From Acidobacteriota bacterium (GTDB lineage: Bacteria > Acidobacteriota > Thermoanaerobaculia > Multivoradales > Multivoraceae): DNA of 42,552 bases. The position numbers and the translations under genes were made by a program. The notes beneath the pieces were generated by a model. The model saw only the letters and a list, made by a program, of their open reading frames with translations. It was not told the origin of the DNA and made no database searches. Of this stretch, positions 6,295 to 24,678 are shown piece after piece. Each line of letters starts with the position of its first letter. The stretch's first letter is position 1. The DNA lies in assembly GCA_026708285.1 (NCBI GenBank), contig JAPOVF010000314.1, forward strand, positions 1 to 42,552, written 5' to 3'.

Positions 6295-6807
6295 TTAGGC
6301 GACGGGCTTCCGCTCGCGGGAGAAGTAGGCGGCGATGGTGTTGGCGCCGGTGTTGTACGGATGCCGGTAGGCAGCCTGGCGTTCGGTTTCGACCTGAGCC
6401 GGCGAGAGTTCGTAGAGGCGCCGGGTGTCGTTCGAGGCGTACCCGGTGGAGAGGAAGCGGCGAACGCAGCGCCGATCGCCGGAGCGATCGACTAGGTAGA
6501 CGCCGTTGTCGCCGTGGTTGAGGCCGCCGAAGTGATGAGGTTCGAGGGCGCGAACGAACCAGCCCTCGGGGATTCGGGGCGCGTTGAAAACTCGAAGATG
6601 GTAGGTGCTGTGCCTGTCTTGGTCGAAGAACTCGCCGGCGATCTGGATGAAACGGGCTGGCTGGAAGGTGGTGTCGGCGTCGATGCCCCGGCGGTCGAGT
6701 TCGTCGAGAAGAGGGTAGACGCTCTCGGGGCCGCCGTTCCAATGGAGGTAGGTGGCGCAGCTGACGCTGGTGCGGTTGGCGAAGAGGACTACGGCTCGGT
6801 TGCCCAT
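6295..6807 (-). CDS. Conserved hypothetical protein of plasmid/phage type (MGNRA...YLHWNGGPESV)
   Basis: A 170-residue soluble protein beginning MGNRAVVLFANRTSV and containing YLHWNGGPESVYPLLDELD. I recall this pattern from a family of uncharacterised plasmid and phage proteins, but cannot name it. An AAGGAG ribosome site lies ten bases before the ATG. It is the most downstream minus-strand gene of the conjugation block, separated from it by 700 bp, so it may be a separate unit. No signal peptide or membrane helix is seen. Confidence 0.65.
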   Translation of the reverse strand: MGNRAVVLFANRTSVSCATYLHWNGGPESVYPLLDELDRRGIDADTTFQPARFIQIAGEFFDQDRHSTYHLRVFNAPRIPEGWFVRALEPHHFGGLNHGDNGVYLVDRSGDRRCVRRFLSTGYASNDTRRLYELSPAQVETERQAAYRHPYNTGANTIAAYFSRERKPVA

Positions 6808-7511
6808 GTTAGTGAAGCTCCTTACGGCGTCGGTTGGCGGTGATCTCGTCTCTCACCCATTGCCTGGAGACGAGAGCGGTGCCGGACGGCAGCCGAAGAG
6901 CGGGGTGGCGGATGGGCGGGCCGGCAAGGTCGAAAGCGGCCGGCTTCAAGACGGGCTTGCAACTTCCCCGCGGGGAACGAAGCGATCAGGCGCGTTGGGA
7001 GGCGGCGAACTGGTGGTGTGCAGACTCGGTGTCCAGCCGTGGCCTCCGTGTTGGTCGGTGGCGTCAGCTGCTCCGGAGCGGTGGCACAGGCTGGCGGGAG
7101 GAAGGGGCGACGGTCGGTTGGCGGTGGACCGTCATGACGGGCAGGAGAGGTCCTGCCTACTTCGCCTAGCGTCGGGATCAGCCGTCGCCGGTTCCGGGCT
7201 GTTGTACTAAGCAGGCGACCCGACACGGGGCTTGCACCTACGGTGACCGGCTGGACGTCATCGCGGTCCTGGCGGGCGGCTGGAGGCTTCGGTAGGCTCT
7301 TCGCGGCTTGCCGCGGGAAGGGAGTCGAAGAGGTGTCGCTGCCGATTCCGAGCCCCCACGGGAGTGGGGAAGAGTCGGTGCGTTGCGGCCTGCGCGACAG
7401 GTCCGGCCAGCGCCCGTCCGGCCACCCGAAGTCGCGCCAAGCCTCGAAGGTCGTTTGTCTACTCGCCGGAGAAGGACGCTCCGAGGGCAGAGCCTGGAGG
7501 AACGTTTGAAG
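6808..7511. other. 700 bp without a convincing gene
   Basis: Several open frames exist on both strands, but their products are proline- and arginine-rich and look like noise. An imperfect hairpin surrounds 7138-7160 (GGCAGGAGAGGTCCTGCC). I see no promoter or known RNA. Confidence 0.4.
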
Positions 7512-7563
7512 GCCGGCGGCGGCCGGAGCCGCCGCCGGCGCTGACGACGCTCTAGGCGTCGTC
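7512..7563 (-). terminator. Double hairpin at the end of the conjugation operon
   Basis: GACGACGC-TCTAG-GCGTCGTC (7543-7563) is a perfect 8-bp stem whose loop holds the stop codon of the gene at 7552. Immediately downstream on the minus strand, GCCGGCGGCGGC-CGGA-GCCGCCGCCGGC (7512-7539) is a perfect 12-bp GC stem. There is no T-run, so termination may be Rho-assisted, or the hairpins may mainly protect the 3' end. Confidence 0.55.
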
Positions 7564-7806
7564 TCCCGCAGGCTGCTCGCGCAGCTCGTAGATGCGGGTG
7601 TGGACCTGATCGGCCAGCTTGCTGAGCACGAGCAGGTCGTTGAGGCCGAAGCTCCGAGTGGTCTTCCACTCGCCGTCCTCGGTGCGGTAGAGCCGACCGA
7701 AGGTGACGTTGTAGCGGATGGCCCCGTCGTCGCCGACCTGGTTCTGCCAGATCGCGGCCTTGACGGATCCGACGCGGACCTCGTCGATGGGAGTTGGGGT
7801 GGACAC
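7552..7806 (-). CDS. Small conjugation-associated hypothetical protein
   Basis: An 84-residue protein. The frame is open far upstream, but the GTG at 7806 has an AGGAGG ribosome site close by and the codon pattern becomes natural only from there. Sequence: VRVGSVKAAIWQNQ, then IRYNVTFGRLYRTEDGEWKTT and RSFGLNDLLVLSKLADQ. Similar short proteins are, as I recall, common beside plasmid and ICE transfer genes, with no assigned role. A decayed relative of its C-terminal half lies at 29563-29712. It is separated from trbB by 460 bp and ends in a strong hairpin. Confidence 0.7.
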   Translation of the reverse strand: MSTPTPIDEVRVGSVKAAIWQNQVGDDGAIRYNVTFGRLYRTEDGEWKTTRSFGLNDLLVLSKLADQVHTRIYELREQPAGDDA

Positions 7807-8266: not shown

Positions 8267-9316
8267 TTACACGAGGTTCGAGTCACGCGGTCGCAGGTTT
8301 GCTGCGAGGGCGGGGCGTCCGCTCTCGCTGCGGCGACGACGGGACCTGGGCGGTGTGGATGCAGCCCGCGGTCGCACCGCGACCTGGTCGGTGAGCCATG
8401 CGTTGTCCTCGGCCTGCCAACTCCGGAGGAGGAGAGCCTCCTCGACATAGCGGCGACCCTTGAGGCGGGTCATGTGAAGAACGAGGGAGATGCCGTCGAC
8501 GACGCTGCGGCAGACCACCTCCCAGGGGAGTTCGCCGGCCTGCATGGCGCAGCTGGCCAGACGTGAGAGCGCGGCGCGGGCATTGTTCGCGTGGACGGTG
8601 GTCAGGGAGCCGCCATGGCCCGTGTTGAGGGCCTGGAGGAGGTCGGCGGCCTCCTGACCACGAACTTCTCCGACCACGATGTGATCGGGTCGGTGTCGGA
8701 GCGAGTGCCTGACTAGGTCCCTGATGGTCAGGGAGCCCTCGCCTAGCTCGCGAGCTTCGAAGCGGACAACGTTCGCCTGCTCGATGCGGAGTTCTAGGGT
8801 GTCCTCGATGGAGACGATGCGCTCGTGATGCGGCAGCAGTTCGATGAGGGCGTTGAGGAGCGTGGTCTTGCCGCTGCCCGTGCCGCCGCTCACGAGGATG
8901 TTCTCGCGGTTGCGGAGGGCGTCCTTGGCGGAGTCAACAATGGCTGGGGTGAGGCTGCCGTTGTCGACCAGGTCCTGCACCGAGAAGGAGCGGTTGCCGA
9001 AGCGCCGGATCGTGATCGCCACGTGGGGCGCGGCGGGTGGTGTCGTGATGGCGACGCGCGAACCATCCGGGAGGCGGGCATCAAGGGCGGGGTCGGTCTT
9101 GGGATCGAGGCCCAGGGGTCGAGCGATGCTGATGGCGGCTCGGCGGAGCGCCCTGTCGTCAAGCTGGGGCGCTTCGACCTGTTCGAGGCCGGCGCCGGCG
9201 CGCTCGGCCCAGGCGTTGCCGGGGCCGTTGATCATGATCTCGGTCACTTCCGGATCCTCGAGGAGCGCTTCGAGGCCGGGGAGGAAGGTCTTGAGGGTGG
9301 CGAGGCTGTCGGTCAT
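8267..9316 (-). CDS. trbB: Type IV secretion ATPase, TrbB/VirB11
   Basis: A 349-residue hexameric traffic ATPase of the VirB11/TrbB/CpaF family, which sits on the inner face of the membrane and powers pilus assembly and substrate transfer. Walker A GGTGSGKTT lies at residues 144-152, the Asp box EDTLEL at 171-176, Walker B IVVGE at 213-217 and the His box NTGHGGSLTTVHA at 231-243. All catalytic motifs are intact and the length is usual. It follows the coupling-protein gene by 41 bp, a gap that holds an operator-like palindrome. It is last in the transfer gene order, whereas trbB is first in classic trb operons. Confidence 0.93.
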   Translation of the reverse strand: MTDSLATLKTFLPGLEALLEDPEVTEIMINGPGNAWAERAGAGLEQVEAPQLDDRALRRAAISIARPLGLDPKTDPALDARLPDGSRVAITTPPAAPHVAITIRRFGNRSFSVQDLVDNGSLTPAIVDSAKDALRNRENILVSGGTGSGKTTLLNALIELLPHHERIVSIEDTLELRIEQANVVRFEARELGEGSLTIRDLVRHSLRHRPDHIVVGEVRGQEAADLLQALNTGHGGSLTTVHANNARAALSRLASCAMQAGELPWEVVCRSVVDGISLVLHMTRLKGRRYVEEALLLRSWQAEDNAWLTDQVAVRPRAASTPPRSRRRRSESGRPALAANLRPRDSNLV

Positions 9317-9357: not shown

Positions 9358-11796
9358 TCAGATCTCGCCGGCGTCGCGCTGCCGCCAGTAGGAGCGGTCA
9401 TGTGGAAGGTAGTGCGGCTTGAGGTAGAGCCTGGTGGCGGGGAGGGACTTCGAGCCGTCGTAGGGCAAGGCGATCGCCTGGTAGTTCTGAAGCAGGGTGA
9501 AGGTTCGCGGATGGAACATGGGTTCGCGCTGTTCGCGGTAGGTCTTGCTGGCGCCCAGGCTGCCGCCCTGGCCACCGCCAGGGCGGGCGGTCACGAGCGA
9601 GAAGCCGGGCTTGCTCGACTCCGAGAAGGAGTAGGACGGGGAGAGCCGGGAGACTTTGCCGCACATGTTGGAGGCGAGGTCGGAGCTGCTGTCGTCGCTG
9701 AGGGTGAGGAAGATGCGGGTGCGAAGCGTCTGCAGGAGGGTGCGCCAGGCGTCGTTGCCGGCGAGGACGGAGCGAAGCGAGGCGATGGACTGGGTGGCGA
9801 CGATTGGAATGCACTTGCACTGGCGCGTGAGCGCGAAGGACTTCTCGTCGCCTGAGGGATCGTCCTCGCCGACCGTGGCGAAGCTCTGGTACTCGTCGCA
9901 GAGGAAGACGGCCGGCCGGAAGTAGCGGTCGGGATTGCGCTTCATCTGGGCCGGCCTCCGTAGGAGGGTCTGGAGCCAGGCGTTCTTGAGGAGGACGCCG
10001 ACCGCGCGTGCGAGCGAGGGGTTGGCGCCCGCTGGCATGTTGAGGGCCACCACCTTGCCGCCCTCGATGAGGTCGGCCAGGGGCGGCAGCGGGGCGAGCA
10101 TTCCGCCGGCGACGCGGCCGTCCGTTTGGGTGGACCGTTCGGCCCGATCGGCGTCGGAAGGCCCCGTTTCGGGGCCTGTTTGCTCCATCTCCCCGGGGGT
10201 CGCGGGCAGATTAGGGGTGTTCGCGGCCGGGGTTTCGTGGGGAGACGGCGGGGCGAAGAGGCGCGCGACGTCGGGCAAGTCGAAAACGGAGAGGAAGACG
10301 CTGATGTTCTCGACGATGGAGCTGCGGAGTTTGTTGTCGAGGGTCAGCCAGTCTTTCTGGTACCACCGGTTGACGGCTTCCAGCCTGGCCAAGCGGTCGT
10401 CGGGCGGGGCCGCCCGCGGGGCCACCGGCTCCCACGAGACGCCGAGCTGGTCAAGGCGTTCGGTGAGCTCGGGGCTGTCGGCGGCCAAGTAGCCGCCGCC
10501 GCGGCCGGGCTTGAAGGTTCCTCCGGGAAGTTCGGGATGGTCGACGTCTTCAGCGGCGATCCGGATCCGGGGCTCGGAAGCCGGGTGCTCGCAGAGCGTC
10601 CTGGCGGCGGTGATTTTCGTCTGGAAGGCTCTGGCGTCAATCGTGAGTCGATAGACGTCGCGGAGGGTGACCCAGGGATCGGGGAAGACGCGGTGGAGTT
10701 CGATGATCCAGCGGACGAGGTTGGTGGACGCTTGGTGCCAGAAGGGGTCCTTGGACTTGCCGAAGAGCTGGTTGAGGAGGTTGGCGAGGGTGTAGGCAAG
10801 GCTGTAGCTGTCCATGTCGGAGTCGAGGGGATTCCACTGCCAGCGGCCGCCCAGGGCGATCTCGACGTAGTCGTCCTCGCGGCCGTTGTCGGCGAGGAGC
10901 TGGCGGATGTCGTGGCAGAAGTCGCCCTTGACCTCGAGGACGAGGCCCGCGGCGCGTCGTTGCGGATGGTGGGCCTGCCAGGAGAAGAGCTGTTCGGCGA
11001 AGGGCCGCATGCAACCGCTGGTCTTGCCGGTGCCGACGGCGCCGAAGATGGCGACGCCGGTGTAAAGACCGCGCTCGGGGATGCTGAGCCACCGCGGCCG
11101 ACTGGCCTCCCTGGCCTCGATCGGGTGATGGAGCTCACCGAGGACGAGGGAGGGAGCCTGGTCGTCGGTGGACGCCGGCCAGGCGGGAAGAACGCCGCGG
11201 CCGCGGCTGGCGGACTCGGTGCGGGAGCCGAGCCAGACCCGAGCCGCGCCGGAGAGGAGAAGGACGCCTCCGAAGGCGACGACGCCCGGAGCGGCCTGAT
11301 GCCAAGCGCGGAAGAGGGCATGGACGGTCGGGTCGTGGTACTGGATGAAGTCCAGGAGGGGGTCGTCGCCGATGGCCGGGAAGGGTTGGACCTGGCCGGC
11401 CCAGCGGAACGCTCCGATGCCGGCCGCCAGGGCCGCGGTCAGCCGGAGCGTGAGGATGCCCCGCAGCGCACGGACGAGTCGGCCGAGGCGACGGTGAACC
11501 CCGGCGCCGGCGACGCGGCCGCCGCGATCGAGAATGCGGCGGACCGCGACAGGGACCAGGTCGACCGCGACGATGAGCGCGGCGGCGAGGGTGGCCCACC
11601 AGGCCGCGCGCAACACCGCGAAGTCGAGGTGGGTTCGTAGAGCGAGGGAGTCGAGCCAAGCGACGCTTCCGGGGCTTGGCCAAGCGGCGAAGCGGAGCGT
11701 CAACAGGAGAACGCCGACGCCCACGGCCGTCGGCCAGAGTAGGCGCCCTAGGAGACGCGGCGGAGCCGTGGCCGCCGATCCGTTCGGGGTGGTCAT
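9358..11796 (-). CDS. Type IV coupling protein, VirD4/TraG-like
   Basis: An 812-residue membrane ATPase that brings the relaxase-DNA complex to the secretion channel. There are about four membrane helices before residue 190 (around 24-39, 68-86, 115-130 and 171-189), where TraG proteins often have two or three. The cytoplasmic part has Walker A GAVGTGKTS near residues 252-260 and Walker B VFLCDEYQSFA near 640, followed by a TQSIASLRSVL sensor segment typical of the family. A proline- and threonine-rich insert near residues 515-560 is unusual. It lies downstream of a repeat-rich noncoding stretch that may be oriT. Confidence 0.92.
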   Translation of the reverse strand: MTTPNGSAATAPPRLLGRLLWPTAVGVGVLLLTLRFAAWPSPGSVAWLDSLALRTHLDFAVLRAAWWATLAAALIVAVDLVPVAVRRILDRGGRVAGAGVHRRLGRLVRALRGILTLRLTAALAAGIGAFRWAGQVQPFPAIGDDPLLDFIQYHDPTVHALFRAWHQAAPGVVAFGGVLLLSGAARVWLGSRTESASRGRGVLPAWPASTDDQAPSLVLGELHHPIEAREASRPRWLSIPERGLYTGVAIFGAVGTGKTSGCMRPFAEQLFSWQAHHPQRRAAGLVLEVKGDFCHDIRQLLADNGREDDYVEIALGGRWQWNPLDSDMDSYSLAYTLANLLNQLFGKSKDPFWHQASTNLVRWIIELHRVFPDPWVTLRDVYRLTIDARAFQTKITAARTLCEHPASEPRIRIAAEDVDHPELPGGTFKPGRGGGYLAADSPELTERLDQLGVSWEPVAPRAAPPDDRLARLEAVNRWYQKDWLTLDNKLRSSIVENISVFLSVFDLPDVARLFAPPSPHETPAANTPNLPATPGEMEQTGPETGPSDADRAERSTQTDGRVAGGMLAPLPPLADLIEGGKVVALNMPAGANPSLARAVGVLLKNAWLQTLLRRPAQMKRNPDRYFRPAVFLCDEYQSFATVGEDDPSGDEKSFALTRQCKCIPIVATQSIASLRSVLAGNDAWRTLLQTLRTRIFLTLSDDSSSDLASNMCGKVSRLSPSYSFSESSKPGFSLVTARPGGGQGGSLGASKTYREQREPMFHPRTFTLLQNYQAIALPYDGSKSLPATRLYLKPHYLPHDRSYWRQRDAGEI

Positions 11797-11833
11797 CGCT
11801 CCGGTCCGAGCCTTCCCGCAGGGATCAATCTGG

Positions 11834-12104
11834 ACGTGAGCGACCCTCCCGCAGCACTGGAAACAGGGCTGGAAAAGGGAAGCCCTTCCGCGCCGCTCCA
11901 GGCGGGCGGAAGGGGGGGTCGCTCACGTCCCAACCCGGCCGCCTGGGGCGGACGGGTTGCTGCGCCCGCAAGGGCGCTTTGCCGGAACAGAGCCCGAGAA
12001 ACACGTTGTGTTTCAAGGACAATTCCGCGGGTGTCGGCGGAAGACGGCAACTGGAAAAGGCCGCTAGGAAGAACTGGAAAAGGGGGGAGCTGTCCTTTTC
12101 CAGT
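11834..12104. repeat. Inverted and direct repeats upstream of the coupling-protein gene; candidate oriT
   Basis: A 13-bp perfect inverted repeat, ACGTGAGCGACCC (11834-11846) and its complement (11916-11928), encloses 69 bases. CTGGAAAAGG occurs at 11869, 12051 and 12074. An inverted copy at 12094-12104 forms an 11-bp hairpin with the third copy (ACTGGAAAAGG, 12073-12083, loop of 10). The stretch between the flanking genes carries no convincing gene. Repeats plus hairpins next to the coupling-protein gene fit an origin of transfer, but no nick consensus is recognised. Confidence 0.5.
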
Positions 12105-12133
12105 CCTGGTGCGGCCGCCTGGTTGACCCGGAG

Positions 12134-13105
12134 TCACGCGAGACCTTGGGGCGAGAGGCCGCGAGGGTGGTGCGTCGAGTAGGCGTCGATCACCGGTAGG
12201 GAGGCGACGCCGGAGTCTTCCGCCTCGGCGCGCTGGCGAAGGTGAATGGAGAGTTGGCGGGCGGGCTCAAAGCCGCCCCACTGCTCGAAGCCGGCGGGGT
12301 CGGCCGCGAGGATGGCCGCTCTTAGGTCGGCCAGCGTTTGCCTCTCCTCTGGGGTGAGCGGCTGCCCGGCCGCCGGCGTGTCGTTCGTCCAGGCGGCGAC
12401 CTTGTGGGAGAGCTCGTGCTGTTTCGCCACGGTCCGCGCCACGGCAGCGACGCGGACCTCGGTTCCGAGCGCGCGGAGCCGGCTCCAGAGGGGGCGGTGC
12501 TCGGCGGCCCAGCGCTGGAGTTCCCGGTCGGTCTGGCGGCCGGGGTCGATGTAGACGAACGTCGCCGACTCCTCGTCGGCGGCGATCGGCAGCTTCAGCG
12601 CGAAGTAGCGGACGGTGCGCTTCGCGGAGCCGCCGTAACGGCGGCTCGGGAGGTGGACGCGGCGGATGCCGCGGCCGGTGAAGTGGTCGACCTTCTCCTG
12701 CTCGGTTGCGAGCCAGGGGAGGTCCGGGTGGCGGATGACGTGGTCGAGCGAGAGGAGGCGGCGGAAGAGGACGAGGCCCTCCTTCGGGTGACGGCGATGG
12801 CGGATGTTCTCCACGCTTAGGGCGCGGTAGAGACCGCGGCCGAAGACATGGGTGTAGTGGAGTCTGGTATCGACGTCCGGGAGGGGATGCTCGCGAGCGA
12901 AGCCAGCGGCGACGAGGGACCGCGCGAAGGTACGGGCGGTCTCCGGAGAGCATCGATGATGGTCGGTGAACTGCGTCCTCGTGAAGACGCCGGAGTGGAG
13001 GCACACGAGGGCGAGCCATGCGGCCTCGTGCGGCCGGAAGCCGAGCTCGTTGAGCGCGGCGTATCGGCCGTCCAAGTGAGGTACGTCCGGGGCGTTGAGC
13101 GCCAT
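12134..13105 (-). CDS. Winged-helix/nuclease-like conjugation protein, replication-relaxation type
   Basis: A 323-residue protein. The ATG at 13105 lies two bases after the trbF stop (TGAACATG). Residues 10-75 form a winged-helix-like unit (FRPHEAAWLALVCLHSGVF, then ETARTFARSLVAAGFAREH). The second half has LPIAADEESATFVYIDPG and TDRELQRWAAEHRPLWSRL, reminiscent of the PD-(D/E)XK-like part of replication-relaxation proteins. I recall similar uncharacterised proteins next to plasmid transfer genes. It is last before the candidate oriT, so a role in DNA processing is a reasonable guess. It is not a recognised relaxase. Confidence 0.65.
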   Translation of the reverse strand: MALNAPDVPHLDGRYAALNELGFRPHEAAWLALVCLHSGVFTRTQFTDHHRCSPETARTFARSLVAAGFAREHPLPDVDTRLHYTHVFGRGLYRALSVENIRHRRHPKEGLVLFRRLLSLDHVIRHPDLPWLATEQEKVDHFTGRGIRRVHLPSRRYGGSAKRTVRYFALKLPIAADEESATFVYIDPGRQTDRELQRWAAEHRPLWSRLRALGTEVRVAAVARTVAKQHELSHKVAAWTNDTPAAGQPLTPEERQTLADLRAAILAADPAGFEQWGGFEPARQLSIHLRQRAEAEDSGVASLPVIDAYSTHHPRGLSPQGLA

Positions 13106-13107
13106 GT

Positions 13108-13761
13108 TCAGAAGTCGACGACCTGGTCGGCCTGGATGTAGGTCACGAGGATTCCCATCGGATTGACGGGAAGGAGATCCGGCGGGACCTCGGGCAGGAA
13201 GGTGAACTGGAGCGAAACGCTCCAGCGCTCGCGGGCGACCTCCTCGCCATCCTCGAAGATGACGAGCTCGAAGTCGGCGGCCGCGCTGTGGGGCGGCTCT
13301 GGTTGAGGCCGAATGGACAGGGCGACCCGCTCGACCTGGCGTTCCTGTTCCGCGAGGCCGGCCGCGACGGCCGCGACGGCCTGGCCGTCGCGCCGGAAAG
13401 CAGCGTCGGCGAGGCCGGTGGCCAGGAAGCGGAGCGACCGGGCCCAGGCCGTCTGAGCGGTTGCCGTTCGTCTGGAGAAGTGGTCGGTCACGAAGCTGGC
13501 CAGGAAGTACTTGGTGGTCGGGTCCATGGGATCGGCGACGGCCTCGACGGCCTCGTACGCGAGGGCCTCGGCGCGGCCCACGTCGTCTACGCGGATGACG
13601 ATCGGCTTGGGGAGCTCGACGCTGGAGAGCCGGACGACGGCGACCAGGAGAAGAAGAAGGACGCCCCCGAGGGCGTAGCTGGCGAGGCGGAAGTGTCGGT
13701 TGGAGACGACAAGCTCGCCCCACACGTCGGCGAACTCCTTGCCGGGGTCCGGTTTGCTCAT
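13108..13761 (-). CDS. trbF: Type IV secretion inner-membrane protein, TrbF/VirB8
   Basis: A 217-residue bitopic protein with a short cytoplasmic N-terminus (KEFADVWGELVVSNRHFRL), one membrane helix (YALGGVLLLLLVAVVRL, about residues 29-45) and a periplasmic NTF2-like domain ending NPMGILVTYIQADQVVDF, a typical TrbF end. It scaffolds the assembly between the inner membrane and the VirB9/VirB10 core. The start overlaps the trbL stop as ATGA, so translation is coupled. Confidence 0.88.
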   Translation of the reverse strand: MSKPDPGKEFADVWGELVVSNRHFRLASYALGGVLLLLLVAVVRLSSVELPKPIVIRVDDVGRAEALAYEAVEAVADPMDPTTKYFLASFVTDHFSRRTATAQTAWARSLRFLATGLADAAFRRDGQAVAAVAAGLAEQERQVERVALSIRPQPEPPHSAAADFELVIFEDGEEVARERWSVSLQFTFLPEVPPDLLPVNPMGILVTYIQADQVVDF

Positions 13762-14997: not shown

Positions 14998-15894
14998 CTA
15001 GTTCAGGCGGAAGGCCCGGCTCCAGGCGTAGCCCTGGCCGCGGACGCGGTTCTGAGCGCGGTCCGCTCGTCGGCGCTCCGCGCGTTCGGTGGCAATCCAG
15101 GCCTCAAGCTCTTCGCGGTGCTCCCGGACCTGAGCGGCCTGGGCCAGCATGTCGCGGGCGGCGTTGTGGGCGAGAAGCTGGGCTACGGCCATTTCGATCT
15201 CGGTCTTGGTGAGTGCGTTGGCATGCTGCTCCTGGGCGAGGGCCGTCTCGCTGAGGTTCGTCTGCTGGCGACTCCGCTCGACGGACGCGGAGGCGTTGCC
15301 GATCAGCTCCACGACGCGTTCGGCGCTGTCGAGGACGAGGTAGTCGGCGACAAGCGCGCGGTCCGAGCGTTGGCGCTGCGCGAGCCAGTTGTTGGAGGCG
15401 CTCGGGACGTCGCGGAAGGTGCGGGTGTACCGTTGTCGGGAAACGGTGTCGGCCGTGGCGAGCTCCTGCCGGAAGTGGGTCAGCAGGGAGTTGGCAGTGT
15501 CGTCCTGCATGTTGGCCATGGCGTTCAGGACTTGAAGTGGTGGACCGTTGAAGTCGCCAGCCCAGGCAACACCGGTGGCATCCTCAAGAAGGTGCACGGG
15601 ATCGGTGCTCAGATCCTCGAAGCGCTCGACAAGGGCGCCGACGCGGCCCATTGCCTGATCGAGGTCCTGCTGGATCTGGTCCTTGAGTTCGAGCACGGTG
15701 TTCGCGGCCTCGGCCGCGGTGGCCGCGGTTTCGACGGCGCTCAAGGCGTTTTCGGCGACGTTGAGGATCTGGGTGATCTCGCTGGCGACGCCGGAGAGGC
15801 TGCCTAGCAGGCCGGAGGCGGGGAGAGCCGCCAGGACCACAAGGAACGGGAGGAGAGCGGCAACGGCGCGGCGTAGACGGGGACGGTTGGTCAT
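14998..15894 (-). CDS. trbJ: Type IV secretion pilus-associated protein, TrbJ/VirB5
   Basis: A 298-residue exported protein. The signal peptide covers about residues 1-28 (AVAALLPFLVVLAALPASG). The rest is almost entirely helical and alanine-rich, with LLGSLSGVASEITQILNVAENAL near the start and a coiled coil (NLSETALAQEQHANALTKTE) later, as in TrbJ proteins. VirB5/TrbJ is a minor pilus component that helps contact the recipient. The start at 15894 overlaps the trbI stop (ATGA), which decides it against longer frames. Confidence 0.85.
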   Translation of the reverse strand: MTNRPRLRRAVAALLPFLVVLAALPASGLLGSLSGVASEITQILNVAENALSAVETAATAAEAANTVLELKDQIQQDLDQAMGRVGALVERFEDLSTDPVHLLEDATGVAWAGDFNGPPLQVLNAMANMQDDTANSLLTHFRQELATADTVSRQRYTRTFRDVPSASNNWLAQRQRSDRALVADYLVLDSAERVVELIGNASASVERSRQQTNLSETALAQEQHANALTKTEIEMAVAQLLAHNAARDMLAQAAQVREHREELEAWIATERAERRRADRAQNRVRGQGYAWSRAFRLN

Positions 15895-17213
15895 TGATCG
15901 ACTCCTGTGGATTGGGGTGGAAGGAGAAGGTCGGCGGTGAACCAGACGCGCAGGCGATGGCCCGCGCGGATGGTGATGGTCGGGAGGCGGTTGAGGAAGC
16001 GGTCCATGATCTGCATTCCGGTTTCCGAGAAGCTCCGTGCAGCACCCAGCTGGAACTGCTCCTGGGTGCCGGCGTAGGGATTGGTGCCGGCGGCCGCGAG
16101 GCCGCTCAACAGGCCGACGCCGCCGGCGGCGAGGAAAGTGCTGAGGTAGTGGCGATCGACCTGGTCCTTGAGCGCGCCTTCGCCGATCTGGTTGAGGCCC
16201 TGGAAACGCAGAGCGGCCCACCGGCCGTCGGGGAAGACGAGTCGATGGAAGCCGACGGCGAGTCGACTCTGGTTCTGGTCGCGGACCGCCTGAACGGTAC
16301 CGATGAAGCGGCTGCCGCGGGGGATCAGGACGGTCTGGCGGTCGGCGCTGTAGAAGGGCACGGCGACGACGGCCGCGACGGGGCTTGGGAAGTCTCCGCT
16401 TAGCTGGGTGACGAGGATGGCTTCTACGAAGGAACCCTCGTGGATGCGGTGGAAGCCGTCCGGGTCGTCGGGAGCGACGACGCGTTCAGGGCGTTGGTAG
16501 GTGGGGAGATTGTTGGAGTCCGGGAGGGGAACGTCCAGGGTGCCACCTCGGGGCTCGGTTGCGGCCTCGAGAAGGGCGTTGACCGGCGACTGTTGCTGTC
16601 TCGCGGCGGCGCTGATGGCGTCGTAGAGGTTGTCGAGCCGGTTCCGGGAGGCTGGTGCGGCTTCGGCCGCAGTGGCGGCAGCCACGCCGGCCGCGTCGGC
16701 GTCGCGGACGGAGTGAGCCACAGGGGCGGCGAGCAGGGAGCGTTGCCGGCGCTCGATGGACTCAAGGTGGAGCTTGAGACGAAGCTCAGCCTCCTCGGGA
16801 GAGAACACGTCGGACTCCCAGGGGTTGTCCTGCTCCTCGGGAGTGATGCCGGCGAGGCGCTCGAGGATGCTCTGGCCGGGATCCGGATCCGGCTGCAGGA
16901 GGTTGAGGTTGGCCTCACGAACCGCCTCGCGTTGGGCATCCAGTTCTTCTTGCGCTAGTTCGAAGGCGGCTTGTCGCCGCTGGTTCTCGACCTCGCTGCC
17001 GAGGCGGTCCTCGACGTCGGCGTCGACCGCGCCCTGGTCGACCATCTCCTGCGTGGGATCGGGGGTGTCCTCCTCGCTGCCGGCGCCGCCGCCGATGGTG
17101 GCGGCGACGATCACGACGACGAGGACCACGGCGAGGATGGCGACCACGCGGTTCATGAGGTTGGCCGGCAGTGCGCCGGCCGGCTTCGGGACGATCTGTT
17201 TCCAGTCGGGCAT
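15891..17213 (-). CDS. trbI: Type IV secretion core protein, TrbI/VirB10
   Basis: A 440-residue protein that spans both membranes and gates the channel. A short cytoplasmic N-terminus is followed by one membrane helix (VVAILAVVLVVVIVAATIGG, about residues 27-46). A variable, glutamine- and alanine-rich periplasmic linker comes next, then the conserved beta-barrel domain with IHEGSFVEAILVTQLSGDF, VLIPRGSRFIGTVQAV and GDGWLQ-like neighbours in trbG. The C-terminus ends RAGHRLRVWFTADLLLP. It begins three bases after trbG and overlaps trbJ by ATGA. Confidence 0.92.
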   Translation of the reverse strand: MPDWKQIVPKPAGALPANLMNRVVAILAVVLVVVIVAATIGGGAGSEEDTPDPTQEMVDQGAVDADVEDRLGSEVENQRRQAAFELAQEELDAQREAVREANLNLLQPDPDPGQSILERLAGITPEEQDNPWESDVFSPEEAELRLKLHLESIERRQRSLLAAPVAHSVRDADAAGVAAATAAEAAPASRNRLDNLYDAISAAARQQQSPVNALLEAATEPRGGTLDVPLPDSNNLPTYQRPERVVAPDDPDGFHRIHEGSFVEAILVTQLSGDFPSPVAAVVAVPFYSADRQTVLIPRGSRFIGTVQAVRDQNQSRLAVGFHRLVFPDGRWAALRFQGLNQIGEGALKDQVDRHYLSTFLAAGGVGLLSGLAAAGTNPYAGTQEQFQLGAARSFSETGMQIMDRFLNRLPTITIRAGHRLRVWFTADLLLPPQSTGVDQ

Positions 17214-17216: not shown

Positions 17217-18092
17217 CTACTGGAGGGGGTCGGGTTCGTCGAAGGTCCAGGTGACGCGTTGCTTCCCGATCTGGAGCCAGCCGTCGCCTATGACGCGACG
17301 GACGACGTAGAGGCCGTCCTCGGTCAGGTCGTAGGGGACCAGGGAGGGTTGTCCGTCCTTGCGTTCGTAGAGGGCGGGAGACTCTTGGGAGAGGCTTCGC
17401 AGGTAGGTGAACTGGCCGTCGTGCCACATCCCTTCGACCAGGAAGGGCCAGCGCTTGGCCTTGTCCTGGAGCCGGTAAGGAAAGCGGACGCGAGTGGGAT
17501 ACTCGGCGCGGAAGCCGTTGACCTGGTCGACGGCGTCGGCCTTGGCCGCGGCGACCTCCTCCGCGGCGGTCCGCCGGTGATCGGCGGCGGCCTCGGCAGC
17601 TGCCCGGGCCATGGCCCGGTAGGAGGCGACCTGGTCAGCGGCGACGAATGCCGGCCGGTGGGCTTCGGTGGCGGCAGAGGCGGGCTCCGCCTCGCTGTCG
17701 TCCAGTCGGACGATGAGGTGGGGCGGGGTGTCGGAGGACTCGGAGACCAGGAAGGGGTAGATCCGGCCGGATTCACAGACGAGGGCGACATTCGTGGCGA
17801 CGCCTTCGTCGGTGGGCTTGAGGAATGCGACGTTGGCACTGCCGCTGAGGTGCCAGTACTCCAAGTCGCCGACTACGAAGTCGAGAATGTTCTCGCCGGC
17901 CGGGAGGGTGATGACGGTCGTGTGTCGTACGCGGGTGCTGATCCGCCAGACCTCCTCGGTGTAAGGATCGATGCGGAGAATGTGGGAGTCTTGGGCGACC
18001 AGGGGAAGAGCGAAGAGGAAAGCGATGGCAGCCGTGATGGCGGGCGGGATGTACAAGATGTGTTTACCTCTGTTGGTTTGCCAGGACCTCAA
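17217..18092 (-). CDS. trbG: Type IV secretion outer-membrane core protein, TrbG/VirB9
   Basis: A 291-residue exported protein. The signal peptide ends near ALPLVAQD (about residue 34). The N-terminal domain holds THVI-type segments such as HTTVITLPAGENILDFVVGD. The C-terminal domain holds RVRFPYRL and ends GLYVVRRVIGDGWLQIGKQRVTWTF, a VirB9/CagX hallmark. VirB9 forms the outer ring with VirB10. The 5' end overlaps trbE by 29 bases; a start inside this overlap is likely, but which codon is used is unclear. No separate VirB7 lipoprotein is seen next to it. Confidence 0.9.
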   Translation of the reverse strand: MRSWQTNRGKHILYIPPAITAAIAFLFALPLVAQDSHILRIDPYTEEVWRISTRVRHTTVITLPAGENILDFVVGDLEYWHLSGSANVAFLKPTDEGVATNVALVCESGRIYPFLVSESSDTPPHLIVRLDDSEAEPASAATEAHRPAFVAADQVASYRAMARAAAEAAADHRRTAAEEVAAAKADAVDQVNGFRAEYPTRVRFPYRLQDKAKRWPFLVEGMWHDGQFTYLRSLSQESPALYERKDGQPSLVPYDLTEDGLYVVRRVIGDGWLQIGKQRVTWTFDEPDPLQ

Positions 18093-20487
18093 GGGCGTCG
18101 GCGAGACCGTGTTGAGCGACGGCCTCGGCCCTCCGTTCGCCGTCGACGGGTGAGCTGGTGTAGAGCCAGTAGGACTCGGGATCGACCTCTAGGCGGACGA
18201 CGCCGGCTTCGTTGGCGCGGCGCAGGTAGAGCTCGCGCTTGGGCAGGAGGCCGCGGATGGTCTGCATTTCCGTGTCGTTCAGGCGGAAGGTCGTCTGAAC
18301 GCTGTCGGGGAGGTCGGGATTGGCCAGGAAGAGCTTGGTGGGGAGGGATTCGAGCAACGCCTGGGCGCCCTCGGTGTCGGTGAGGTCAACCGCGCTCTGC
18401 GTCGAGAGGACCAGTGCGGCGTTGCGCTTCCGCCAGGTCTTTGCGGCCTCGGCCAGGTAGGTCAGGACCGCGCGGTCGTTCAGATACCGCCAGGCTTCAT
18501 CGACCACCATGAGCTTCACGCGGCCGGCCTCGGCCGGGTCGTCCAGGGCGAGGCGGAGGCGTTCGAGGAGGAAGAATAGGGCGGCCTCGCAGAGGTCGTC
18601 GTGCTCCGCGGCGCCGGCAAGGTCGATGACCTGCCAGTCGGCGAGTTGGAGGGTGTCGTCTCCGCCACCGTCGAAGAACTTGGCCCAGACGCCGTCGCTG
18701 TGCCAGCGGCTCATGGCTGGCCACATGGAGGCGGGCATCGTGCTTACCAGGGTGGAGAGGGTGCGCTCTCGGGGGTCGGCGGCCTTGTAGAGGTCCTCCA
18801 CGCGTTCGCGGATCTCGGTGGTATCCGCGCCTTTGAGGGTGTAGCCGCCGATGCGGAGAAGGCGGCTGACCCAACCGGTGAGGAAGCTGAACGTGCGCTC
18901 GCCAGGAGGGAGGCTGAAGGGCTTTAGCGCGAACTCGTCGCCGGCGGCGTCGGGGTTGAGTTCGAGGTAGCCACCGCCGATGAACTGAGTAAGCCAACGG
19001 TAGGAACCGCCCAGGTCGAGGACGAGGACGCGTGGCGCGTAGTGCTGGGACTGAACGAGTAGGAAGTTCAAGGCGAAGCTCTTGCCGGCTCCGGTGGCGC
19101 CCAGGATGAGGGTGTGGCCCACGTCGCTGCCGCCGAAGAGGTCGTAGTGGTAGGGGGTGCGCCAGGGCGTTTCGAAGATGGCCATGGCCGGCTTTCCGAG
19201 GTGCTTGCATTCGGTCTGGCCAGGAGGCGGCCCGAAGAGCGGTGCCAGGCAGGCGGCGACGCCGGCGCTGCTGAACACGGTTCGGATCTGGCGCTTCCGG
19301 GGTTGCCCGGGCAAGCGGCTCCACCAGGCGGGAAGCTGCCCGAAGCCTTCGCGGATGACCTTGGCGTCGGCGGCGCCGAAGATTCGGAAGAGGTCGGCGT
19401 CCAGGGCCTCGATCTCGGCCAGGTCGTCGCCGTGGAGCGCGATGTTGAGGGAGATGTCGCCGTAGGCAACGCCTTCTGTCTCGAGTTCGACGAGAGCGTG
19501 AGCGATCCGGGCCGATTCAGCGTCCGCCGCGGAGTCGACCATGGCCGCGGCCGTACCCTGGGCGTCCTGCATGTGGGCGACCATCGAGTAGCGCTTGCTG
19601 AAGTAGTGCCGCTGCACGCTCCGGATCTTGCGCCGGGAGGCGGCGAGGGGTTGCGGCCGCCACTCGAGCGAGATCGTGACGGTTGCTTCGAGGCGGTAGA
19701 GCTCCGCCAGCAGGTTCGGTCTGGCCTGAACGGGCGGCGAGGTCAGGTTGTAGAGGATCAGGGGCTGGCCATCGAGGCGCAGGAAGCGCCGCTCGGCTTC
19801 GAGTTGGGAGAGGGCGAGTCGCCAGTTCAGCGCGCTCGGGATGTGGTCGCCGTGCCAGGGTTGACCAGGCCGGTTCACGAGTTCGGAGAGGACGCCGGTG
19901 GCTTCGGCAGCGGGTAGCAGCCGAAGGGGCGTCACGTCGGAAGCGAGGGCGGCGGAGGCCTCGACGAGCTGGCGGAAGCGTTCGGCCGCGGCGGTGACGT
20001 GGCGCCGGAGGAAGGCGCACTCGTCCGGCTTGGTTCGGTTCTTGATCCACTCGTGGGCGGCCGCGAGGACGCCGGCGTTGCCGGAGTGCGCGTTTCTCTT
20101 GAGCTGGGCGTCGTGCGACCACACGACGTAGGCGCGGAGGTCCTGGACGCGGCGCTCGAGAAAGCGGCGCCGCTTCTCCTGGGAGATGGCGGCGATGCCG
20201 TTCAGGCCGTCGATCGGCGCGAGGCGTCCGGGGCGGCGCAGGAGGTAGAAGTAGAGGCGAGTGTGGGGATCGAGGCTGCTGAGGAGGCGGAGCCAGCGGC
20301 TAAGAACCTCGTCCATCTGCTGCGGAGTGCGGCCGTCGACGACGGCCGGGGAGAGCGTGGCGACAGCGAGAAGCTCGCCGTTGCGGGTAAGGCAGAAAGG
20401 ATGGTCCTGGAGCCAGCCCCAATAGGGAAGCTCCTCGGCGAGGCTGCCGGCGGCCTCGTAGTCGGCGCGTTCGGCGTCCAGGTTCAT
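18064..20487 (-). CDS. trbE: Type IV secretion ATPase, TrbE/VirB4
   Basis: An 807-residue ATPase, the largest energiser of the secretion machine, bound to the inner membrane and recruiting pilin. Walker A is GATGAGKS at residues 463-470 and Walker B LMVVDEAWRYL near 650, followed by STQSAVDL, a standard VirB4 segment. The N-terminal half (GWLQDHPFCLTRNGELL..., RRKIRSVQRHYFSKRYSMVAHM) is the CagE_TrbE_VirB domain. The start at 20487 overlaps the trbD stop (ATGA), and longer frames are rejected. All catalytic motifs are intact. Confidence 0.94.
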   Translation of the reverse strand: MNLDAERADYEAAGSLAEELPYWGWLQDHPFCLTRNGELLAVATLSPAVVDGRTPQQMDEVLSRWLRLLSSLDPHTRLYFYLLRRPGRLAPIDGLNGIAAISQEKRRRFLERRVQDLRAYVVWSHDAQLKRNAHSGNAGVLAAAHEWIKNRTKPDECAFLRRHVTAAAERFRQLVEASAALASDVTPLRLLPAAEATGVLSELVNRPGQPWHGDHIPSALNWRLALSQLEAERRFLRLDGQPLILYNLTSPPVQARPNLLAELYRLEATVTISLEWRPQPLAASRRKIRSVQRHYFSKRYSMVAHMQDAQGTAAAMVDSAADAESARIAHALVELETEGVAYGDISLNIALHGDDLAEIEALDADLFRIFGAADAKVIREGFGQLPAWWSRLPGQPRKRQIRTVFSSAGVAACLAPLFGPPPGQTECKHLGKPAMAIFETPWRTPYHYDLFGGSDVGHTLILGATGAGKSFALNFLLVQSQHYAPRVLVLDLGGSYRWLTQFIGGGYLELNPDAAGDEFALKPFSLPPGERTFSFLTGWVSRLLRIGGYTLKGADTTEIRERVEDLYKAADPRERTLSTLVSTMPASMWPAMSRWHSDGVWAKFFDGGGDDTLQLADWQVIDLAGAAEHDDLCEAALFFLLERLRLALDDPAEAGRVKLMVVDEAWRYLNDRAVLTYLAEAAKTWRKRNAALVLSTQSAVDLTDTEGAQALLESLPTKLFLANPDLPDSVQTTFRLNDTEMQTIRGLLPKRELYLRRANEAGVVRLEVDPESYWLYTSSPVDGERRAEAVAQHGLADALEVLANQQR

Positions 20488-20774
20488 TCGATGAGATGGA
20501 GGTGCCAGGTGGAGGGCTTGCCGGCGTCGTAGCGGGTTCGGCTGGAGCCGGCCTTCGCCAGGATGGAGAGCATGTTGGGATCGCGTTTCCAGGCGAGAAA
20601 GCCGGCCACGTAGAGGACGGCGAAGATCAGCGCTCCGGTGATGATCGAGTTGAGGCCGTTCCAGACGCCCAGGCCGAGCGTCATGGAGAGGAGAAACCAC
20701 CGGCGCTCCACGCCCAGAATCTTCATGGGGCGTGAGAGCGCCGGGTGGCCGTACCAGGGTGTCTCGCCGCGCAA
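20484..20774 (-). CDS. trbD: Type IV secretion membrane protein, TrbD/VirB3
   Basis: A 96-residue protein with the VirB3 pattern: a polar N-terminus (YGHPALSRPMKILGVERRW), then two closely packed membrane helices (about residues 26-62) and a short basic C-terminus. VirB3 works with VirB4 in pilus assembly. It lies six bases from the upstream gene and overlaps trbE by ATGA. Confidence 0.87.
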   Translation of the reverse strand: MRGETPWYGHPALSRPMKILGVERRWFLLSMTLGLGVWNGLNSIITGALIFAVLYVAGFLAWKRDPNMLSILAKAGSSRTRYDAGKPSTWHLHLIE

Positions 20775-20780
20775 GGGGAG

Positions 20781-20956: not shown

Positions 20957-21277
20957 CTAGAAGAGCCAGTTGAGGAAGTTCGCCGCGCCCATCGTCATGC
21001 CCAGGCCGAAGATGATTCCGGCCAGGAGCTTCTTCGAGCCGCCCTCGCCGAAGGCGAACATCAGGCCGCCGATGACGAGGGCCACGAGGCTCAGGCCTCG
21101 AGCGATCGGACCGGTGAAGGCGGTCTGGAGCCGAGTGACGGCCGTCTGCCACGGGCTGGTGCCCTGGGCCATGGCCAAGGCGGGCACGAGGAAGAGGAGC
21201 GTCGTGAGCCGAATGGAGAGGCTCTGGAGTCGAGAAGGCGGAGCCTGCGGCTTCGCGCCGACGGTTTCCGGGGTCAT
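20957..21277 (-). CDS. trbC: Conjugative pilin, TrbC/VirB2
   Basis: A 106-residue prepilin. A long signal peptide (about residues 1-38, ending ALAMAQG) precedes the mature pilin, which has two hydrophobic helices, GLSLVALVIGGLMFAFG and KKLLAGIIFGLGMTMGAANFL, split by a short EGGS loop. This is the usual VirB2/TrbC plan. The ribosome site AAGGAGG is strong, as expected for an abundant subunit. Confidence 0.9.
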   Translation of the reverse strand: MTPETVGAKPQAPPSRLQSLSIRLTTLLFLVPALAMAQGTSPWQTAVTRLQTAFTGPIARGLSLVALVIGGLMFAFGEGGSKKLLAGIIFGLGMTMGAANFLNWLF

Positions 21278-22198: not shown

Positions 22199-22199
22199 G

Positions 22200-22376
22200 T
22201 CAGTGGTCCTTGTTGCGGCCAGTCACGCGGGCCCAGGCTTGCTGGGCCGCGTCGAGGGGGCGGTCGGGGCAAGGGGCGCCGAGATAGACGAGAAACGGGG
22301 AAAGGAGCACCAGGACGGCCACGACGTGCGCTGCGGGGCCGGTTCCGGTTCCGAGAGGAGGGACTTCGGCGTTCAT
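22200..22376 (-). CDS. Very small membrane protein in the conjugation operon
   Basis: A 58-residue protein, MNAEVPPLGTGTGPAAHVV..., with one membrane helix (about residues 18-38, HVVAVLVLLSPFLVYLGAP) and a short polar tail ending TGRNKDH. The start overlaps the stop of the upstream gene as ATGA (22373-22376) and the stop lies one base before the next start. It is easily missed because of its length, but the double coupling strongly suggests that it is translated. Confidence 0.65.
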   Translation of the reverse strand: MNAEVPPLGTGTGPAAHVVAVLVLLSPFLVYLGAPCPDRPLDAAQQAWARVTGRNKDH

Positions 22377-23269
22377 AGGTCGAGGAGGCCGTCCTCGATG
22401 CCGCCGCGGCGTCCGCCGCTGTTGGTGGAGCCGCTGCTCGGAGAGGAGAGACCGCGTAGCGCGGCGGCCAGGTGGCGGGCGGCCTTGGGGCTTGACGCGA
22501 AGAGAGCGAAGCCGGCTGCGCTCTTGGCGGCGATCGAGGCGCGGGTGTAGTGCTCGGTGGTGATCTCGATGTTGACCCGGCCTTCCGTTGGGCCGTCCGG
22601 GCCGCGGGCGATCTCGATCTGGGCGTCGGGCCAGAGGATCGCTCCCTTGTCGTCAAGGGGCAGTTGAAATCGCGCGGCGATCTCCTCGCGCAGCGCGTCG
22701 GCCGCGTCGCGGCCGCGCGCTGTCCGGACGGCCTCGGTGCGTCTCATGATCTCGCTGCGCATCTCGGCGTCAAGCCGGACACGTCGCAGGTGGAGACCAC
22801 GCTCGGCCAGGCGGTCGCGCGCCGCGGCGACGGCCCGGTAGAGAGCGAGGTCGTGCTTCAGGTCGGTGCTCTTGCCCAGGCCGCTCCAGGTGCGTTGCTC
22901 GGAGGCCCAGCCGCGCAAAGGGGCGACGTCGCGGGCGAGGCGCTCGCCCGCTGGCGTCGCCGTGAGGACCTTGGTGGCGCGAGCGGTCTTGGTGTCGCGG
23001 AGTTCGTGCTCCTCGACCAGGCCAGACTTCTTGAGGTTGTCGATGCCGCGGCGGCCGGCGAAGAAGTGGCCGCCGAACTGGCGGTCGACCAGGTCGCGTG
23101 AGGCGACGGCGCGATGGACGGCTACGTCCACGAGAGACGCTTGGAGCCGGTCCTGGAAGGACCTGCGCTCAGGCTCCCGACCGGCGAGCTCGCGGCGGTG
23201 GCCTCGTTCTCGAGACGGCGGGCGCTGGGTCTGCTCAAGACCTGCTCGGGGATCGGAGAAGCGGCTCAT
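22373..23269 (-). CDS. Winged-helix plus nuclease-like protein, replication-relaxation-like
   Basis: A 298-residue protein. Residues about 60-115 look like a winged helix (DRQFGGHFFAGRRGIDNLKKSG, then KVLTATPAGERLARD). Residues about 135-260 have KHDLALYRAVAAARDRL, then PDAQIEIARG and RVNIEITTEHYTRASIAAKS, a spacing like the PD-(D/E)XK-type core (D...E.T) of replication-relaxation (Replic_Relax) proteins. That family is linked to plasmid replication and transfer in other bacteria. I cannot confirm membership or relaxase activity. It follows ardC by five bases and overlaps the next gene by ATGA. Confidence 0.6.
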   Translation of the reverse strand: MSRFSDPRAGLEQTQRPPSRERGHRRELAGREPERRSFQDRLQASLVDVAVHRAVASRDLVDRQFGGHFFAGRRGIDNLKKSGLVEEHELRDTKTARATKVLTATPAGERLARDVAPLRGWASEQRTWSGLGKSTDLKHDLALYRAVAAARDRLAERGLHLRRVRLDAEMRSEIMRRTEAVRTARGRDAADALREEIAARFQLPLDDKGAILWPDAQIEIARGPDGPTEGRVNIEITTEHYTRASIAAKSAAGFALFASSPKAARHLAAALRGLSSPSSGSTNSGGRRGGIEDGLLDL

Positions 23270-23274
23270 CGGAT

Positions 23275-24678
23275 CTATCCGCGAGTGGGTCCGTCGTCGC
23301 GGCCGTGCGCTTGTTCGGCGATCGCGGGATCGTGAACCGCGTGGCCTTGGGCCTGGTTGGCGAAGCTGTCGGCGACGCTAAGGACGGCCTTGCGCTCGTC
23401 TGAACTGAGCGATTGGGCGTCGATCGCGTGGTTCTGCAGGTCGCCGCGAAGGCCGCGGAAGTCGGCCGTCTTCGGTGTGTAGGCGTTCTGCGAGGCGACC
23501 AAGTGGACGGCCTGGAGGTCGCGGATCAACTTCTCGGTCGGGCGGTCCTCGTTGCCGTTGCGGCGGAGGACGCCCAGCGCGGCATCGGCGGCGCGCGAGA
23601 TGTTCCCGTTGAAGCGGGTGGCGGCTTGCTGTTGTGCCGCTGCTGCCTGTAGAGCCTGAGTCGGATCGAGTTCTTCGCGTCGCTCAAGCTCCGGGCCGGG
23701 CTGACGGTCTTCAGCGTCGGCAGCGGGCTGCTGCGGGGGCTGTTGCTCGCGCTGTTCGATGCGCTCGCGCGCGGGCTCGATCAAGTACCGGGAGATCCGC
23801 TCCGCGTCGGCCGCCGCGCGGTAGATCTCCCTGGGGTCGTCTTCGAGAGCCTTTACCCAGCTAGCGACGTAGGCGGCGCTGTCGTTCTGGGGCTGGTGGC
23901 CCAGGCCGATCTTCTCGCCGGTCATCATCGCGGCGATCTCGGCGCGGAGCTCCTCCCTCGCGTACTCGGGGCTGCCGAACTTCTTGCCGAGGGTGTCGCG
24001 GTTGAGGCGATCGGGATGGCCGGTCGCGTGGCCGAGCTCGTGGATGGCGGTCTGGTAGTAGCTGCCGGTGCTGGGGAACTGGCCGGGTTCAGGCAGGACA
24101 ACTTCGTCGGTACGGACGTTGTAGTAGGCGCGGTCGCCGGCTTGGTGCTTGACGGTGACGCCGCTGGTCTCGATGATGGCGTCGGCTGCGGCGTGGCCCT
24201 CCCATTCGGGGGGAGCCGTGGCGGGCGGTCGCTCGGGGAGGCCGCCGGTCTGTTCGGCGTTGAAGACGGAGTAGGTGCGGACGAAGGGCTTGGGGCGTTC
24301 GAGGACGGTGTAGACCGGTTCGCCGGCATCGTTGAGCTTGGGATTTCCCTGGTCGTCCTTGGCGGGGACGAGCTTCGTGGTGGAGAAGAAGAGGATCTGA
24401 GTGGCCCGTTCGCCGCGTTCAACGTGGCCGCCTGCCTCCCTGATCTGGCGGTAGGTGGCCCATCGGTTGTCGGTGTAGCCCCTTGTCTGGGCGGCGACAC
24501 TGAGGTAGAGGCTGTTGCCTCCCGCGTAGCGTCGGCCGGTTGCGAGGTTCTCCGGAAGGGAGCGCTCGCCGGGCTTCCAGGGCTTCTGGAAGGGGGCGGT
24601 TCCCTCCTCCAGTTGGCGGATGATCTGGCGGGCGAACGTCTTGTGGTACTCGCCGACGCGGTCTTTGGAGGGGGCCAT
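23275..24678 (-). CDS. ardC: ArdC-like antirestriction protein with zincin-like domain
   Basis: A 467-residue protein of the ArdC family. Residues 8-140 are the ArdC N-terminal single-strand-DNA-binding domain (YHKTFARQIIRQLEEGTAPF, LPENLATGRRYAGGN). The zincin-like domain follows, with HELGHATGH at 213-221 and a downstream glutamate in REELRAEIAA. The C-terminal third is glutamine-rich and variable. ArdC proteins protect incoming plasmid DNA from host restriction and are often among the first genes to enter the recipient. Here it leads the transfer operon, after a small gene whose start is missing. Confidence 0.92.
   Translation of the reverse strand: MAPSKDRVGEYHKTFARQIIRQLEEGTAPFQKPWKPGERSLPENLATGRRYAGGNSLYLSVAAQTRGYTDNRWATYRQIREAGGHVERGERATQILFFSTTKLVPAKDDQGNPKLNDAGEPVYTVLERPKPFVRTYSVFNAEQTGGLPERPPATAPPEWEGHAAADAIIETSGVTVKHQAGDRAYYNVRTDEVVLPEPGQFPSTGSYYQTAIHELGHATGHPDRLNRDTLGKKFGSPEYAREELRAEIAAMMTGEKIGLGHQPQNDSAAYVASWVKALEDDPREIYRAAADAERISRYLIEPARERIEQREQQPPQQPAADAEDRQPGPELERREELDPTQALQAAAAQQQAATRFNGNISRAADAALGVLRRNGNEDRPTEKLIRDLQAVHLVASQNAYTPKTADFRGLRGDLQNHAIDAQSLSSDERKAVLSVADSFANQAQGHAVHDPAIAEQAHGRDDGPTRG

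Follow-up and report, generated by a model that had tools for sequence, protein, structure and literature searches.

Replic_Relax is the Pfam name for relaxases of the MOBC class (PMC5357655). This class is related to the PD-(D/E)XK restriction endonucleases, and TraX binds five direct repeats in the origin of transfer (oriT), away from nic (PMC12857230). Here we describe an integrative conjugative element (ICE) of Acidobacteriota in which no recognised relaxase is found, but which carries two conserved winged-helix proteins, P1 and P2, and a structured non-coding site directly after the P1 gene. The window, that is the whole stretch of 42,552 bp that was analysed, is the complete contig C201 within a 4.99-Mb draft genome. 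We consider it fairly probable that the ICE is self-transmissible and that its transfer begins at positions 11797-12133, the candidate oriT, through the action of P1, a divergent MOBC-like protein, with P2 as a possible nickase. P1 itself is most likely a divergent MOBC-like variant that standard typing has overlooked. All results are computational, and contigs from metagenome-assembled genomes (MAGs) may be misbinned.

A conjugative element without a recognised relaxase

The gene set is that of an Acidobacteriota ICE. VirB2-4, VirB6, VirB8-11 and VirD4 are identified by Pfam and the order of the whole VirB/D set is preserved in relatives, which bears out an earlier note on this DNA in describing the coupling protein, ATPases, pilin and core proteins as intact. 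Positions 1-38042 of the window are 99.93% identical to a contig of a sister genome; like this contig, every relative in the genus that carries the gene set belongs to an Acidobacteriota MAG, and many of these MAGs apparently come from marine sponges, judging by their isolate names.

The earlier note had recognised no HUH- or TraI-type relaxase, and profile searches agree: among the window proteins tested against Pfam and NCBIfam none matched a relaxase family, and PF03432, PF08751, PF03389 and PF07514 (HUH MOBP/V, MOBF, MOBQ; MOBH) are absent from the window and likewise from closed units of two relatives. The note had also suggested that a standard relaxase might lie just outside the window, and here the relatives speak against it. 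Contig C150 of genome G001 is a closed circle of 26,505 bp with an exact end overlap of 7,933 bp, and the element of G009 is a 29.4-kb tandem unit; the gene lists of both (26.5 kb and 29.4 kb) include no recognised relaxase, and what the two have in common is only the VirB/D genes, the integrase, ArdC, P1, P2, an 84-aa protein and a few small or partition genes. In G018, a further relative that carries the complete ICE gene set, nothing in the 97% complete genome matches any of the four families. Searched genome-wide, these families gave matches on other contigs and once on an ICE contig outside the unit, and none of the canonical relaxases in the genomes searched is consistently linked to the element. 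The absence of a profile match is in itself weak evidence of absence, because curated profiles miss divergent members.

Two observations on these relatives may be added. A PF03432 relaxase and a MobA_MobL match at G009:C3:46691-51699, on the contig of the tandem ICE and about 15-18 kb outside the unit, apparently belong to another mobile element. The circular contig of G001 has a coverage of 55x, against 18x and 30x for two other contigs of its bin; a third is also at 55x.

P1 resembles a MOBC-type protein in its predicted fold

The two proteins that the earlier note had suspected of starting transfer in an unconventional way both exist and represent conserved families, as alignments of 51 P1 and 19 P2 sequences show; in their AlphaFold models (pLDDT 88 and 81, about 93 in the core) the predicted winged helix precedes a domain of mixed alpha/beta structure. 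Neither P1 nor P2 matches any family in Pfam or NCBIfam. Searches of the PDB with the two models returned winged-helix matches only and are uninformative on the second domains for this reason.

Against a viral structure library (Foldseek), the P1 model has only two matches with E<0.001, both nearly full length (264-274 alignment columns): gp146 of Bacillus phage G, which is the best (E 5e-5, probability 1.00, 264 columns, TMq 0.39, 11% identity), and a protein of Bacillus phage JL. gp146, the one of the two whose family was tested, is a Replic_Relax protein (PF13814 at 4e-25) and belongs to a PHROG annotated as 'replication initiation by nicking'; the same Pfam profile finds MobC of a CloDF13-type plasmid at 8.5e-22. 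With a TMq of only 0.39 this is support at the level of the fold rather than proof. Judged by its model, P1 seems to share its fold with MOBC, a known class of non-HUH relaxases, but to be without the sequence signature of that class. The comparison with Replic_Relax that the note had proposed gives a match for the P1 structure, over its full length, and none for the sequence profile of either protein; what had been called unconventional becomes a divergent relative of a known class and not a new fold.

A structured, conserved site follows P1

The candidate oriT extends over 337 bp directly after P1 and bears GGGTCGCT...ATCCCTNCGGGAAGG. Sixteen copies are known within the genus, including copies without virD4, with a mean column identity of 80%. 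Folded as single-stranded DNA, the window copy reaches -100.8 kcal/mol, compared with -66.3 kcal/mol for shuffles (z -9.2); in an unbiased folding scan only one stretch of the window stands out more strongly, and in 10/10 distant loci tested the top outliers include the DNA that follows P1. The hairpins covary: changes on both sides number 51, against 20.6 in shuffles, and the signal is lost on sliding the partners. A constant 15-bp inverted repeat flanks part of the site. The first hairpin of the site is made of an element-specific iteron with compensatory arms; this iteron occupies fixed positions in several elements and is present in four copies in the window. An open reading frame (ORF) at 11793-12137, considered as a small gene ('P3'), was rejected in favour of the cis site: it is of low complexity and its frame is broken in the relative L077.

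Distant loci, also those after P1 in other phyla, have a core in common, AGCGACCC ... GGGTCGCT ... GATCCCTNCGGGAAGG. This pattern occurs at 32 sites in 396 Acidobacteriota genomes, compared with 0 for the reversed pattern, and lies within 400 bp after P1 in 41/73 loci, with 0 occurrences of the reversed-motif control in 1.1 Mb. The site is oriT-like in being non-coding, in containing inverted repeats and iterons, in adjoining a mobilisation gene and in being carried by putative mobilisable elements that have no type IV secretion system (T4SS), and it is probably the start point of transfer.

P1 and the site travel together on satellite islands

P1 was found in 80 loci in Acidobacteriota, Gemmatimonadota and some Proteobacteria, and it lies between virB8 and virD4 wherever both are present. 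It also occurs on islands that consist of integrase and P1, or of integrase, P1 and VirD4, without other T4SS genes; VirD4, in other words, travels with P1 in elements that have no other VirB genes. The cis site is kept in P1 islands with or without VirD4, and one integrase-P1 island is missing at the matching site of a relative. At the far end of the series, the cis site adjoins an integrase in G016 with no P1 at the locus, in a genome without P1 (only a 24-residue match elsewhere). It is the adjacent cis site and the satellites carrying P1 that single out P1 over P2, which is found only together with the full gene set and is absent from the small islands. By analogy, the nested series resembles integrative mobilisable elements (IMEs), the cis site and P1 look like an oriT with its initiator, and P1 and VirD4 are paired much as MobC and the coupling protein are in MOBC plasmids.

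The integrases of the islands are of another type (Arm-DNA-bind_3/P4-type) than the XerD-like enzymes of the ICEs, and no tRNA genes that might serve as attachment sites were found near the intA islands. In related conjugative elements, P4-type integrase genes are also found behind virD4 genes that are cut short (L098 11795, L103 2282, L114 11963, L126 11949, L138 3423). The truncations fall at two conserved places, at about codons 305 and 356, which suggests that some islands take the coupling-protein genes of such elements as their target. The core motif was also seen without a detected P1 at L194 (G006:C10:48801), L199 (G000:C29:3886) and L202 (G342:C494), two of these at most 0.5 kb from an integrase gene.

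Neither P1 nor P2 has a match in the plasmid collection, where VirD4 matches only two distant plasmids, and viral contigs contain neither P1 relatives nor the core motif. No earlier description of the P1-site module was found in the literature searched, which comprised open-licence papers.

P2 as a candidate nickase

The topology of P2, as read from DSSP strings, together with D215, E235 and K249, fits the alpha-beta-beta-beta-alpha-beta core of PD-(D/E)XK enzymes. No nuclease is seen among its structural matches because winged-helix matches fill the list. PF13814 matches 0/19 P2 members, and hhalign comparison of P2 with MOBC gives probabilities of 2-6%.

Proposed mechanism and alternatives

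We propose that the 337 bp separating P1 from virD4 would be where transfer starts. The winged helix of P1 probably recognises this site, with the element-specific iterons as the most likely contact, and P1 would deliver the DNA to VirD4. The nick could be made by P1 itself or by a P1-P2 pair, to which P2 would contribute its intact PD-(D/E)XK-like residues; the pair appears slightly more likely. Mobilisable elements with the cis site only, with the site and P1, or with the site, P1 and VirD4 may use the machinery of the ICE in trans. More tentatively, and with somewhat less confidence than doubt, P1 could found a new family of MOBC-fold relaxases whose active site has been rebuilt or is completed by a partner (P1 recognising, P2 cutting), with an oriT that spans phyla and satellites reduced to an integrase and an oriT.

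Several observations weigh against the proposed mechanism. The fold assignment comes from a single AlphaFold model, and the TM-scores of the two phage matches are modest (0.37-0.39). PF13814 matches none of the 51 P1 members (E<=10, listed families), nor does it find them in the whole-genome search, and profile comparisons of P1 and P2 with MOBC, at full length and over the core only, give probabilities of 0.6-6%. P1 is without the PD and without the first acidic residue of MOBC: by an equivalence to PD...ExE..K that was read by eye, the position of the first acid, 185, holds Y in 45 sequences, F in 5 and H in 1, and W or H stands at the expected K. The strict core motif is not within 400 bp in 32/73 P1 loci, some of which have it slightly beyond. 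Finally, distances between P1 recognition helices showed no correlation with those between iteron sequences (partial Mantel test, r 0.01, p 0.40, n=12). In favour of the mechanism, the recognition helix of P1 is the variability peak of the N-terminal domain (0.52-0.58, compared with 0.04-0.2 around it), while that of P2 forms no peak; such variability is what iterons specific to each element would lead one to expect, but in view of the null result this feature is only suggestive.

P1 might act as the relaxase by itself, which is a sharper version of the proposal above and compatible with it. Here the MOBC fold would hold a rebuilt active site of R116, K138, H203 and the acid at position 187, and P2 would serve elsewhere, for example in regulation or in processing of the leading region. 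The minimal islands, which keep P1 and not P2, are consistent with this, as are the acid at the second MOBC position, 187 (D or E in 51/51 sequences), the invariance of R116, K138 and H203, and a P1-VirD4 pairing that mirrors the MobB-MobC pairs of plasmids (type IV coupling protein and MOBC relaxase). The missing canonical PD and first E speak against the putative catalysis by P1 alone, and we regard this version as possible but rather doubtful.

Iterons and a winged helix are typical of initiators and repressors too. P1 and its site could therefore serve regulation, replication or excision, with P1 as an iteron-binding repressor or initiator or as a recombination directionality factor, and the proximity of P1 to the integrase in islands would suit such a role. 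Against this, P1 is encoded in the T4SS operon, flanked by virB8 and virD4, and its predicted fold is that of a nicking and mobilisation family; islands that have no virD4 still keep the site, which in the ICE is distant from the integrase and accompanied by a separate RepA. We judge these functions unlikely.

Alternatively, the tyrosine recombinase could be the relaxase, as for TcpM of pCW3, MpsA of SGI1 and MobK of pIGRK, with P1 as a TcpK-like helper that binds oriT (precedents for TcpK in PMC6137059, MpsA in PMC6414798 and MobK in PMC8152469). A tyrosine recombinase is indeed present in most of the complete elements and islands examined, including the island without P1. These recombinases are, however, exchangeable between two classes, XerD-like in ICEs and Arm-DNA-bind_3/P4-type in islands, whereas P1 and the site are constant, and the ICE integrase is about 12 kb from the cis site, which makes the recombinase an improbable relaxase. 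That the ICE has no relaxase and borrows a canonical one from another element is highly improbable: PF03432, TrwC or MobA_MobL matches do occur on other contigs in 6/7 genomes, but their linkage is inconsistent, those on the G009 contig lie well outside the tandem unit, and G018 carries the full ICE with none of the four families.

Other features of the element

Table 1. Coordinates of the genes and of the elements of the candidate oriT in the window
Feature	Position	Strand	Basis or remark
84-aa conserved protein	7552..7806	-	directly after P1 in other lineages
VirB11 ATPase	8267..9316	-	PF00437 1e-49; TIGR02788; Pfam VirB11/T2SSE
VirD4/TraG coupling protein	9358..11796	-	PF10412, PF12696
Candidate oriT, 337 bp of non-coding DNA	11797..12133	-	conservation, folding, covariation, retention in islands
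Cross-phylum core GGGTCGCT-N-ATCCCTGCGGGAAGG	11811..11846	-	
3' arm, constant 15-bp inverted repeat (GGGTCGCTCACGTCC)	11832..11846	-	
Iteron 4, direct copy (CTTTTCCA)	11870..11877	-	
5' arm, constant 15-bp inverted repeat (GGACGTGAGCGACCC)	11916..11930	-	
Iteron 3, direct copy	12050..12060	-	
Iteron 2, direct copy (CCTTTTCCAGT)	12073..12083	-	
Iteron 1, inverted copy (ACTGGAAAAGG)	12094..12104	-	
P1, 323 aa, Replic_Relax-like domain after a winged helix; proposed to initiate transfer/bind oriT	12134..13105	-	conservation, model match
VirB8	13108..13761 (about)	-	PF04335; start by gene caller
VirB6/TrbL	13758..14993	-	PF04610
VirB5-position conserved protein, role unassigned	14998..15894	-	kept in sister elements
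VirB10	15891..17213	-	PF03743
VirB9/CagX	17217..18092	-	PF03524
VirB4 ATPase	18064..20487	-	PF19044; start by gene caller
VirB3	20484..20774	-	PF05101
VirB2 pilin (TrbC/VirB2)	20957..21277	-	PF04956 3e-17
P2, winged helix + PD-(D/E)XK-like domain; candidate nickase	22373..23269	-	invariant H139 D140, P214 D215, E235, K249
ArdC-like anti-restriction protein	23275..24678	-	PF08401, PF18818; adjoins P2 in relatives
XerD-like tyrosine recombinase (integrase)	24620..25891	+	PF00589, PF02899; start uncertain, 24677 alternative

The longer ORFs at 12134-13840 and 13108-14631 are over-extended and were replaced by the actual genes of P1 (12134-13105) and VirB8 (about 13108-13761). The protein at the VirB5 position has no significant Pfam match, and the 84-aa protein has no Pfam match. 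The strongest single-stranded folding outlier of the window, at 7501-7700, overlaps the gene of the latter, and a related 63-nt stretch is found at 29562-29624.

A RepA_C replication protein (27011-28024, minus strand) and a RepB-type primase (28060-28950, plus strand) are present in the window element and three relatives, but they were not seen in the relatives G009, G018, C150 and C270; the window element may therefore pass through a plasmid phase. The right end of the window, 38043-42552, departs from the otherwise identical sister contig and matches a family of tandem chromosomal genes (38060-39136); it is either a junction left by integration or a join made in assembly. Toward the left side of the element lies an isolated tRNA-Ile(GAT) gene (3389-3465), and two neighbouring 99-nt repeats, 90% identical, are found at 796-993 within the ORF 43-2115.

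Implications

The relaxase profiles searched miss these elements, and conjugation in Acidobacteriota and Gemmatimonadota associated with sponges and soil is therefore probably undercounted. The pair of P1 and candidate oriT yields a DNA motif and a protein profile with which such elements can be found. If P1 and P2 do split recognition and catalysis between them, such a sharing of tasks would be unusual for a conjugative relaxase. Islands with the putative oriT only provide a measure of how far satellites can shrink.

Comparison with described systems

The MOBC proteins, such as MobC of CloDF13 and TraX of pAD1 (PF13814), have a winged helix followed by a restriction-endonuclease-like fold and are often paired with a VirD4-type coupling protein, as P1 appears to be; the binding of oriT repeats by TraX (PMC12857230) can be compared with the iterons described here, and the P1 model matches a PF13814 phage protein. 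P1 differs in having no detectable sequence or profile similarity to the class and in lacking PD and the first E; its element also encodes a second winged-helix protein, P2, in which the PD/E/K set is intact, and has a heavily structured cis site. The phage protein in question, gp146 of Bacillus phage G, is the best whole-length structural match to the P1 model and differs from it in having RPD and FFEID motifs.

Streptococcal IMEs that combine Rel_PF13814/MobC with VirD4 (PMC5357655) are likewise mobilisable units of an integrase, a MOBC-type protein and VirD4; there the integrases are serine enzymes and PF13814 is recognisable, whereas the integrases here are tyrosine enzymes. In pCW3, which also has no HUH relaxase, the winged-helix protein TcpK acts on oriT repeats alongside the relaxase TcpM (PMC6137059), which parallels the proposed binding of short oriT repeats by a winged helix. 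TcpK, however, is transcription-factor-like and TcpM is a dedicated relaxase derived from a recombinase, while the element described here combines VirB/VirD4 machinery with winged-helix proteins that have a nuclease-like second domain.

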